37,380 nucleotides of DNA from a virus, in IMG/VR virus record IMGVR_UViG_3300040781_000495, positions 1 to 37,380 of that record; one strand, given 5' to 3'. Positions within the stretch are counted from its first letter, which is position 1. The number at the start of each line of letters is the position of its first letter. Below the pieces are notes generated by a model that saw nothing but the letters and a program-made list of their open reading frames with translations, searched no databases and was not told where the DNA came from. The translations under genes and the position numbers were made by a program. Shown here in pieces: positions 11,462 through 13,557 of the stretch.

Positions 11462-11857
11462 ATGGGTGATATGGCGATTAAAATAAAAGACGTGCGCGAT
11501 GCACTAGGTATTACTAATGCCGACATCGCTAAAATGCTAGGCTTTAAAGATGCTACCTCTTATAGCAACAGCCCAAAGCGCAAGTTTTATGAAGACACTA
11601 TTATTACTATTTTTAATAGCACAAAAGACATTATGAGCAACAATAGATTTATCGTGAAGCCCAGCGAGACAAAAGGCTATCACATCATCACAGACACAAC
11701 TAACATGATTGTCGTGCAATGGCAACAGGGTGATTTTAACAACACCCAAAAAGCCATAGAGCTATACGAAACCTCACACCTATCAGTAACAGAAATCGCC
11801 CACTCCATGCGAGAGATAGGCGACTACCTAGTTAAAAATCACGCTAAATTACTGTAA
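11462..11857 (+). CDS. HTH-type regulator
   Basis: 131 residues. The N-terminal 40 residues read as a helix-turn-helix (IKDVRDALGITNADIAKMLG), followed by a beta/alpha domain (KGYHIITDTTNMIVVQW) and a C-terminal helix. A start at 11471 (MAIKIKD) is nearly as good. It precedes the structured RNA and the antirepressor, so it may take part in the lysis-lysogeny or immunity switch. I recognise no specific family. Confidence 0.65.
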   Translation: MGDMAIKIKDVRDALGITNADIAKMLGFKDATSYSNSPKRKFYEDTIITIFNSTKDIMSNNRFIVKPSETKGYHIITDTTNMIVVQWQQGDFNNTQKAIELYETSHLSVTEIAHSMREIGDYLVKNHAKLL

Positions 11858-11893
11858 GGCAACAAAAAAAACTTGCTGTTTTTAAAAATAAAA

Positions 11894-11923
11894 TTTGCAC
11901 ATCTCAAAAAGTTTGTATATTTG
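11894..11923 (+). promoter_or_regulatory. Promoter of the structured RNA/antirepressor
   Basis: TTTG at 11894-11897 and TATATTTG at 11916-11923 with 18 bp between them. The predicted start (about 11928-11930) falls at the first base of the long-range stem described next, so the transcript would begin with the structure itself. Confidence 0.65.
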
Positions 11924-11926
11924 CCA

Positions 11927-12078
11927 TGTCAAACAGTCTGAGAGAAATCTTAGAACTTTATTTTTAATTATAGCGTAGCCTTACTACGGTGTTCCGGTTG
12001 TTCATATTTTTGAGCATTCAAAGCGAAAGCAGGAAAATCCAGTCTTAGACTGTTTGACACACCTAACGTAAGGCTACG
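11927..12078 (+). ncRNA. Structured RNA leader with competing hairpins and pseudoknot
   Basis: Long-range stem 1: TGTCAAACAGTCTGAGA (11927-11943) pairs with 12043-12059, 17 bp with one G-U. Long-range stem 2: CGTAGCCTTAC (11974-11984) pairs with GTAAGGCTACG (12068-12078). They interleave as a pseudoknot. Each has a local competitor. TCTGAGA (11937-11943) can pair with TCTTAGA (11948-11954) around a GAAA loop. CGTAG (11974-11978) can pair with CTACG (11984-11988). A GCGAAAGC mini-hairpin lies at about 12023-12030. It ends 19 nt before the antirepressor ATG. No known RNA family is recognised. A cis-regulatory switch or an independent small RNA are the two readings. Confidence 0.65.
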
Positions 12079-12097
12079 TGCGTTTAATTATACCGAT

Positions 12098-12829
12098 ATG
12101 TCAAAGGTAAATTATAGTCAAGCTGCGACTCTAAACCAGCAATTATCTAAAAGCGCCACATCTGAAGAAGTGCGCAACTATTTTTTAACTGTTTTTGCCT
12201 TAAAACAAAACACTAGTGCGGACTTTCCTATAAATCTGGACGATGTTTGGCCTTTAGCGTACTCACAGAAAAAAGATGCAATGAGAATTTTGCAAAGAGA
12301 ATTTATGGAAGGAGAAGAATATCAAGCTTTCCAAAATGGCAAGGTTCTAAAAATAAAAGACTTAAAAAATGGTGTTAGGTCAAACGTGTTTATTTCATTA
12401 AATGTTATGGAATACTTAATTGCCCGCAAGGTAAAAGAAGTCTTTAACGTGTACCGTGAGGTGTTTCACCAGCGCATAGACAAAGCATTGCAATCTAAAA
12501 ACAATGTGCGCCTACTTAAATCGCAGCTTAACGACAGCGAGGTGCTCGATGCACGAGATGTTCCGTACAGCTTTGTCATGGAAAATGGCGTTAAAGTGAG
12601 CCGTGTTTTTATAAAAGGTTGTACATTGTACGCGCTTACCGACTTGCGAGCAGCTTATAAAATAGCCAGTAACAACTCAAAAATCGCAAAGCAAATAAAC
12701 GCCGTGAGCGAGAACGCTGTAAAGCTTTGCCTATTCGGCAAGCCTACTACGTGGTTTGTTAACGACCTAGGCTTAGACCTAATAAAATCACGTCAGGGTG
12801 TACATAACCAAACAACACTAGCGCTATGA
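12098..12829 (+). CDS. Phage antirepressor (AntA/AntB-like)
   Basis: 243 residues. Residues about 42-110 (FPINLDDVWPLAYSQKKDAM ... FMEGEEYQAF) fit the AntA/AntB N-terminal domain; the C-terminal half is a separate DNA- or protein-binding region with a lysine-rich helix. Such proteins block the repressor or related regulators and favour lytic growth. The gene lies just downstream of the structured RNA, so its translation may be controlled. It overlaps the next gene by four bases. Confidence 0.75.
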   Translation: MSKVNYSQAATLNQQLSKSATSEEVRNYFLTVFALKQNTSADFPINLDDVWPLAYSQKKDAMRILQREFMEGEEYQAFQNGKVLKIKDLKNGVRSNVFISLNVMEYLIARKVKEVFNVYREVFHQRIDKALQSKNNVRLLKSQLNDSEVLDARDVPYSFVMENGVKVSRVFIKGCTLYALTDLRAAYKIASNNSKIAKQINAVSENAVKLCLFGKPTTWFVNDLGLDLIKSRQGVHNQTTLAL

Positions 12830-13056
12830 GCATGGTACTAGACAAAGAGGGCAACATCGTTACAAAGAGTAACTTTGCCCCGCATGACCCTAGCGAAGAT
12901 GTGGTGACACGCATGCACGTGCTTATAGGCCTTATACAACAACAAGACCCCGACTGCCACGACCCGCACCAAAACGCGGTAGCACTCGAAATGCTCAAAG
13001 AAATGCTACCCACTAAAGAGCAGGTAGCTGTGTACATTAACCCTTTAAAACAATAA
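12826..13056 (+). CDS. Small hypothetical protein
   Basis: 76 residues, Asp/His-rich in the middle (QQDPDCHDPHQNAVALEML), helical at the C-terminus. It is coupled to the antirepressor by a four-base overlap. The function is unknown; it probably acts with the antirepressor or in the same switch. Confidence 0.6.
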   Translation: MSMVLDKEGNIVTKSNFAPHDPSEDVVTRMHVLIGLIQQQDPDCHDPHQNAVALEMLKEMLPTKEQVAVYINPLKQ

Positions 13057-13078: not shown

Positions 13079-13267
13079 ATGGCTTACCTATTTGGAGCAC
13101 TCGTTTTTTTAGTAGCTTTCATTTTTGCAATGCGCTTGCTCGGCGCATGGATGTTGCGCATCAACGAAATCATCAAGTATCAAGAGATCACCATTAACGA
13201 GCTGCGCAAGCTCAATGGTAGTTACGGCTATAACAACAACAATCGCAACCAGCAACGCTTGGACTAG
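13079..13267 (+). CDS. Small N-terminally anchored membrane protein
   Basis: 62 residues: one membrane segment (LFGALVFLVAFIFAMRLLGAW, about 4-24) followed by a charged helix and an Asn/Gln-rich tail. Short spacing after the previous gene indicates the same transcript. It could tether an early complex to the membrane. No family recognised. Confidence 0.55.
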   Translation: MAYLFGALVFLVAFIFAMRLLGAWMLRINEIIKYQEITINELRKLNGSYGYNNNNRNQQRLD

Positions 13268-13315
13268 TTGAATAACCTGTTAAAAACCGCGCTAGGTCTG
13301 GACTAGCGATTTGTT

Positions 13316-13348
13316 AAAAAGCGTGTTACATTTGTTAACACGCTTTTT
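13316..13348. terminator. Bidirectional terminator between early and late genes
   Basis: AAAAAGCGTGTTA (13316-13328), a 7-nt loop, TAACACGCTTTTT (13336-13348). Both strands end in a T-run, so it can stop the early plus-strand operon and the minus-strand head operon. It sits two bases upstream of the 13351 ORF. Confidence 0.85.
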
Positions 13349-13350
13349 TT

Positions 13351-13557
13351 ATGGAGTACCACCAGCTTAGTAGCAGCCAGCGTAAGAAGATGCGCAGCGA
13401 GGAGATACGCAAACGATTTGCCGACCTTGAGAGCCGCCGCGAGCATGGCGTGCGCAAATACACCCGCGAGTGGGTCCTACAAACACTCGCCCGCCAGTAC
13501 TGGCTCTCTGCCATTACCATAGAACACATCGTCTTTTACCGCAATGGCTACGAGTAG
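13351..13557 (+). CDS. Small HTH protein, candidate late regulator
   Basis: 68 residues, strongly basic. SEEIRKRFADLESRREHG is followed by an HTH-like segment REWVLQTLARQYWLSAITIEHIV, similar to small Bacteroidota phage proteins with sigma-like HTHs. It lies at the early/late boundary, the position of the Mu middle/late activators (Mor, C). The start lies just after a terminator T-run, so either readthrough or a cryptic promoter must express it. Its stop abuts that of the convergent head operon. Confidence 0.55.
   Translation: MEYHQLSSSQRKKMRSEEIRKRFADLESRREHGVRKYTREWVLQTLARQYWLSAITIEHIVFYRNGYE

Follow-up and report, generated by a model that had tools for sequence, protein, structure and literature searches.

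A c4-type antisense RNA probably precedes the antirepressor gene of a Mu-like Bacteroidota phage

The sar RNA of phage P22 is a separate antisense transcript made from the opposite strand. It controls the initiation of ant translation (PMC12197685), and antisense control of antirepressors by c4 RNA is already known from phages P1 and P7, with c4 RNAs catalogued in Proteobacteria and phages (PMC2864571). In phage P1, RNase P releases c4 from a longer transcript by cutting at a GGW motif (PMC5320573). The processed RNA acts in trans (PMC5320573, PMC8546580), and its loops a' and b' contact the target both upstream of the ribosome-binding site and at the site itself (PMC8546580, citing Hartmann 1995). 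The phage P1 record gives the order promoter, a1, b1, c4 RNA (77 nt), a2, b2, icd and ant, with a1 and b1 listed as ‘putative target sites’ and a2 and b2 as target sites. Here we describe an element that is very likely a c4-type antisense RNA in the antirepressor mRNA leader of a Mu-like Bacteroidota phage, where it would block the start of the antirepressor gene. Antisense control of an antirepressor is what this locus would have in common with the sar/ant pair of P22, but its antisense segment lies on the same strand and the same transcript as its target. Throughout, stem P1 denotes the long-range helix between segments A and A' of the leader, and phage P1 denotes the virus with c4.

The window analyzed here is the whole of IMG/VR record IMGVR_UViG_3300040781_000495 (37,380 nt), a Mu-like temperate phage with MuA/MuB-type transposition proteins, an S24/HTH repressor at 1-831, and Bacteroidota-type promoters. 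We take the host to be a member of the Bacteroidota because of this promoter type and because two MAGs, named Bacteroides sp. and Saprospiraceae, carry related loci. Between 1124 and 19519, the early region is on the plus strand and the genes from 13558 to ~19519 are on the minus strand, with later genes back on the plus strand. The leader, which is the 5' region of the antirepressor mRNA, fills the 240 nt between the end of an ORF at 11857 and the start of an antirepressor-like ORF at 12098, and all features described below are on the plus strand. Bacteroidota promoters have a -33/-7 consensus, and a promoter of this type is predicted at 11894-11923, with a -33 TTTG (11894-11897), 18 nt of spacer and a -7 TATATTTG (11916-11923). 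Most homologous leaders likewise have a TAnnTTTG element directly 5' of segment A. An earlier note on this DNA had placed a promoter so that transcription begins at the first base of the first stem, and the positions found here agree with it, the predicted transcript start being ~11926-11927.

Between 11900 and 12110, the longest helix is the 17-bp stem P1, formed by UGUCAAACAGUCUGAGA (segment A, 11927-11943) and UCUUAGACUGUUUGACA (segment A', 12043-12059) with one G.U pair. The second longest, P2a, has 12 bp between GCGUAGCCUUAC (11973-11984) and GUAAGGCUACGU (12068-12079), 11 of them Watson-Crick and one G.U. The strands of the two helices alternate in the order 5'-1, 5'-2, 3'-1, 3'-2, which bears out the interleaved 17-bp and 11-bp stems of the earlier note, the second stem gaining a base pair when its G.U is counted. 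This interleaving is far above chance, as the top-scoring interleaved pair reaches 67, compared with 35.5 +/- 3.4 (maximum 50) in 400 dinucleotide shuffles, and the thermodynamic fold of the leader has an MFE z of -4.2. The competition described in the earlier note is also present. UCUUAGA occurs at 11948-11954 and again at 12043-12049, and both copies are rivals for one partner, UCUGAGA at 11937-11943. The first copy gives a local 5' hairpin with a GAAA loop, UCUGAGA-GAAA-UCUUAGA (11937-11954, -7.2 kcal/mol), that rivals stem P1, while a second hairpin in the fold, CAGUC-UUA-GACUG (12040-12052, -4.0 kcal/mol), is excluded when stem P1 forms.

Two further features emerged beyond those in the earlier note. 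A 4-bp helix, P2b, between GGUG (11988-11991) and CACC (12060-12063), stacks on the 12-bp stem via a UAC/UAAC internal loop, and its 3' strand, seen both in the fold and in relatives, is followed by a conserved UAA. In addition, the 3' part of A', UUUGACA (12053-12059), is complementary to UGUCAAA (12099-12105), a segment we call A'', which overlaps the antirepressor start codon (ATG at 12098). Segment A is itself a copy of this start region, having AUGUCAAA in common with 12098-12105. With the extra helix and the complementarity to the start codon, the functional element extends from ~11894 to 12105.

This layout resembles that of phage P1/P7 c4, in that a promoter, a target copy, an antisense domain, a second target copy and an antirepressor follow one another in like order, with segment A in the position of a1/b1 and A'' in that of a2. 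Folding of 11973-12082 gives the outer stem, the inner GGUG/CACC stem, and hairpins followed by a mostly unpaired antisense stretch; the folds of L012, L027 and phage P1 c4 (L081 344-420 in our alignment) also contain an outer stem and two hairpins, and their closing strand likewise comes after an antisense stretch that is largely free of pairing; the hairpin at 12040-12052 is the counterpart of the second c4 hairpin. Phage P1 c4 starts with GGUG and ends with CCACC, and the window has the same UAY-GGUG...CACC frame. Aligned with it, the putative mature RNA of the window (11988-12063) would be 76 nt long, compared with 77 nt in phage P1. Specificity set by variability of the a' type is common to phage P1/P7 c4 and the window type. 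Thus, of the three kinds of element that the earlier note had offered (riboswitch-, thermo- or sRNA-like), the sRNA-like one proved apt, since the architecture equals the c4/a1b1/a2b2 arrangement of phage P1. The window also departs from phage P1 c4 in several ways, as it has the 12-bp P2a as an extra outer stem beyond the internal loop, a continuous 17-bp a1:a' pairing in place of the two short blocks, a and b, a target that overlaps the antirepressor start codon with no icd between, and a Bacteroidota promoter and host. Phage P1 Ant1 showed no sequence relationship to the N-domain profile of the window's antirepressor.

The element is a divergent Bacteroidota-phage variant of the known c4 kind that Rfam models miss. 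An Rfam scan of the whole window gave no match at gathering thresholds, including to C4 (RF01695), c4-2 (RF02944) and c4-a1b1 (RF03163), and these three models gave none on 11850-12150 even at E<=10; phage P1, in comparison, scores 68.8 bits with Rfam C4 and also matches c4-a1b1. However, c4-2 is also found in leaders of the window's own antirepressor family, reaching 53.9 bits in L034 and 43.3 bits in L054 (gathering 41), with L036 (31.7) and L030 (25.9) below the threshold. The c4-2 fold has an outer stem, a UAU/UAA internal loop, an inner GG/CC stem and a GAAA-loop hairpin as in the window, although in the window the GAAA hairpin is separate and small, and the central part is longer. The earlier statement that no known RNA family could be recognized therefore holds for the window's own Rfam matches, but not for the kind of RNA, which is a known one with same-class leaders matching c4-2 above threshold.

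The candidate regulated gene (12098-12829) encodes a 243-aa antirepressor-like protein that has no match in Pfam or PHROG. Its classification follows from its N-domain family, A2, and the domains of its relatives: 6 of 13 homologous N-domains in A2 match Pfam AntA (AntA/AntB, PF08346) weakly (best 4.5e-4), and gut-phage relatives have Ant-type C-terminal domains. A search with the full-length protein matched nothing in viral records but near-identical contigs and two contigs from gut phages, and returned no match among genome contigs, so that N-domain alignments (A1, A2) were needed; these reached ~60 loci in IMG/VR and the two MAGs. In both gut contigs, a promoter lies just 5' of the gene and is followed by dissimilar sequence with an identical interleaved plan. 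Interleaved stems are present in many of the ~60 related leaders, and leader interleaving scores exceed those of coding-region controls (Mann-Whitney p = 1.8e-7). The full plan of promoter, A, P2, A', P2', A'' and antirepressor recurs, in unrelated sequence, in ~20 independent leaders of other phages. A DNA similarity search with the RNA in phage records returned chance matches only, as did the pattern CTACGGTG...GACACACCTAA apart from the window's own strain copies. The leaders of some homologues (e.g. L018, L019, L062 and L070) have no interleaved stems, and others, which we term class 2 (L017, L020, L035, L040, L045:1352-1468, L065, L013/L015 and L014), have shorter pseudoknots before AntA-like genes and lack the copy at the start codon; the first six of these were kept out of the start-codon-type set. 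A pseudoknotted RNA directly before a gene could also belong to a type III toxin-antitoxin-like system with the toxin encoded downstream. We give this next to no credence, as the gene downstream encodes a member of an AntA-like antirepressor family, there is no repeat array, and Pfam and PHROGs hold no toxin match.

Searching from the RNA rather than the protein leads to the same type of gene. Scanning IMG/VR with a DNA pattern that describes the inner stem found 23 stretches, 14 of which are c4-like by model score and two of which are contigs already reached by the protein search. The genes 3' of these RNAs encode Bro-N, KilA-N, AntA (3e-26), ORF6N and Rha+ANT proteins; this variety after a motif-only search indicates that the link between the RNA and antirepressor-type genes does not depend on the protein family seen in the window. 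In L095 and L096, a c4-like RNA stands before short uncharacterized ORFs. The 14 R2-type source loci have no Rfam match above gathering (R2 being our refined covariance model, built from 15 loci without the window). The earlier note had named covariance in related phages as a check on its stems, and in an alignment of 15 loci (A7; 14 distinct, window left out) the outer stem covaries, with changes on both sides at 11/11 pairs and 97% of pairs formed. The structure as a whole has a covariation score of 0.678, versus 0.199 for shuffled and 0.11-0.14 for slid controls (maximum 0.137). Most A7 members were found by the exact TATGGTGG...GTCACACCTA pattern, in which GGUGG and GUCACACC are fixed; the constancy of those letters in A7 is therefore partly ascertainment, while P2a, A and A'' were unconstrained. 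The window, L027, L030, L036 and L045 were reached otherwise, by protein homology or model search, and all keep GGUG/CACACC.

Covariance models also return to this locus. A model of three relatives has its top match in the 37 kb here (17.2 bits, E 0.012), and R2 gives 11973-12079 on the plus strand as its sole match in all 37,380 bases, at a moderate score (21.7 bits, E=7.8e-4), where the limits of P2 coincide with those of the stem in the earlier note. The central part of the window's domain is longer than that of the relatives and different from it. We preferred covariance-model alignment to RNAalifold on a MAFFT alignment, which was abandoned because it mixed c4-2-like and window-like domains and misaligned them. 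Among 395 genomes of the phylum of the Saprospiraceae MAG, neither R2, scored on only 10 candidates per genome, nor the R2 pattern gave a match, and with so few candidates scored the R2 result carries no information.

Inverted repeats are equally visible in DNA, and the interleaved pair could conceivably be an operator, a recombination site or a MITE. The cassette of RNA and antirepressor is indeed missing from phage L009 (IMGVR_UViG_3300035698_008001), whose transposase is 72% identical and in which the neighboring small ORFs are adjacent (13090-13362); the RNA-antirepressor module is therefore optional. A DNA element is nonetheless highly improbable given that R2 reports the plus strand only, that A:A' makes use of G.U pairs, that the repeats are anchored in a strand-specific manner to a promoter and a start codon, that the window phage has a single copy, and that related leaders match the RNA family c4-2.

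The third pairing ties the antisense RNA to its presumptive target. Segment A, the 5' half of the long stem, is found again as A'' at the antirepressor start codon in many related leaders, which gives A' two possible partners. We assessed this by permutation in 24 independent leaders, taking A' from the two stems alone and using anchored local alignment as the measure; RNAduplex energies of the whole leader against the start region were dropped because they were too noisy with internal loops. Summed over the 24 leaders, A' fits its own start region with a score of 190.0 (133.2 +/- 5.9 for permuted partners), and A resembles its own start region with a score of 202.5 (146.9 +/- 6.5 for permuted partners); in both cases, 0/100,000 permutations attain the observed value. 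This complementarity is a property of the class; the window's own A'/A'' match, UGUCAAA, is 7 nt long and alone is not significant, with 8/58 cross comparisons as good. In L024, the closest protein relative of the window, the match is 14 nt. Start-codon-type leaders have the same anchoring throughout, with A after the promoter, A' before CACACCUA, and A'' from AUG+1. The window fits the R2-type layout, as its A follows TATATTTGCCA (the TAnnTTTG promoter), its A' precedes CACCUAA in keeping with the CACACCUA rule, its A'' is at AUG+1, and its AUG is 32 nt from CACCUA (31-42 nt in R2-type leaders). At positions 3-7, the A-A' and A''-A' letters vary in concert. In 8/15 start-codon-type leaders, A:A' has a U.G wobble at position 8, while most A'' copies keep a Watson-Crick C-G there, as if A were tuned to be weaker than the target at that position.

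These patterns of conservation bear on the riboswitch and thermosensor that the earlier note had also entertained. Competing stems 5' of a start codon would suit a metabolite riboswitch, an ion switch or an RNA thermometer, but we find such an element barely credible, since there is no conserved unpaired, aptamer-like core, and what is conserved is the complementarity of sequences that change in concert while their letters are hypervariable. No Rfam riboswitch model matches in the window, and the same RNA stands before both phage regulatory genes and small ORFs.

If the element is a c4-type antisense RNA, transcription would start at segment A (11927), cross the c4-like domain and continue into the antirepressor gene, and the domain would display the antisense strand A' (12043-12059), whose UUUGACA could pair with A'' (within AUGUCAAA) at the start codon. 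By analogy with phage P1 c4, RNase P probably cuts at UAC/GGUG (11985-11991), between C11987 and G11988, the first G of a GGW motif, to release a ~76-nt GGUG...CACC RNA. In a lysogen, the processed RNA would pair with the start site of the antirepressor, acting either in trans or in cis, and so block translation and protect the repressor and lysogeny. In the uncut precursor, segment A would act as a second, a1-like target copy that holds A' in the 17-bp stem and leaves the start codon free; in the processed RNA, A' would be free and the start codon blocked. Calculated pairing is much stronger for A:A' than for A'':A' (-26.1 vs -8.3 kcal/mol), which suggests that repression needs A to be cut off or trapped, and in single-transcript folding the start codon is unpaired both with and without A. 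The idea in the earlier note that the leader controls the antirepressor gains weight from these mutually exclusive pairings, which are transcribed into the gene and covary in related phages.

The same three segments might also operate within a single molecule. In a cis-only riboregulator or attenuator, A would be the anti-sequestor, A' the sequestor and A'' the start region, no processed trans RNA would be involved, and a protein, translation of a 13-codon ORF at A, or transcription kinetics would pick A or the start codon as the partner of A'. That a single transcript carries A, A' and A'' in mutually exclusive pairings, that A:A' pairing is strong, and that A of the window opens with the AUG of this ORF would all agree with such control, and a U-tract 3' of P2 in many relatives makes transcriptional attenuation conceivable there. 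We consider it unlikely, however, as no U-tract follows P2 in the window, relatives do not keep the 13-codon ORF, the UAY-GGUG...CACC frame fits a processing site, and the architecture is that of phage P1, whose c4 is processed and trans-acting. The ORF itself, MSNSLREILELYF (11926-11967), lies on the expected transcript start and has AUGUCAAA in common with the antirepressor start. A peptide-leader attenuator built on it was rejected as the main explanation because the leaders of relatives lack the ORF.

Within the preferred reading, control by a c4-type RNA, it is possible, though we hold this doubtful, that the precursor is a processing-gated switch. Segment A would then lock A' in the pseudoknot, and the antirepressor would be translatable until an RNase P cut at UAC/GGUG parts A from A', so that the ratio of cut to uncut leader sets immunity. 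Phages would carry orthogonal A/A'/A'' codes, some of them for genes other than antirepressors. Classic c4 is not known to be gated in this way. If a diversified Bacteroidota branch of c4-like RNAs does exist, a short, readable RNA code would widely determine the lysogeny and immunity of gut and environmental Bacteroidota phages. Immunity groups would then be predictable from A' and A'', and superinfection compatibility could be tested from sequence. GGUG/CACC is spared from variation at the expected RNase P site, which makes processing directly testable.

Several smaller observations concern the surroundings of these RNAs. Directly 3' of the window's antirepressor, a 76-aa ORF (12826-13056) occupies the same place as a small ORF in L030 (2345-2605) and is a possible operon partner. 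A second, weaker c4-like RNA in L030 (2717-3114, 21.5 bits) stands before a paralogue of that small ORF 3' of the antirepressor, which suggests that a phage may have several c4-like modules. In L045, a c4-like leader at 760-1119 (60-80 bits, R1/R2) with A, A' and A'' precedes a 63-aa ORF that has a hydrophobic segment and is not an antirepressor, and the same locus has another, different pseudoknot leader before its AntA-like gene. In the human-gut leaders L007 (3545-3560), L016 (1316-1328) and L071, an inner reverse complement of the TATCTTTG promoter element is a possible antisense promoter. Finally, TTTAATTATA is found on either flank of the window's outer stem (11963-11972 and 12084-12093), and the UAAUUA parts of these repeats could pair to lengthen the outer stem toward the start codon.
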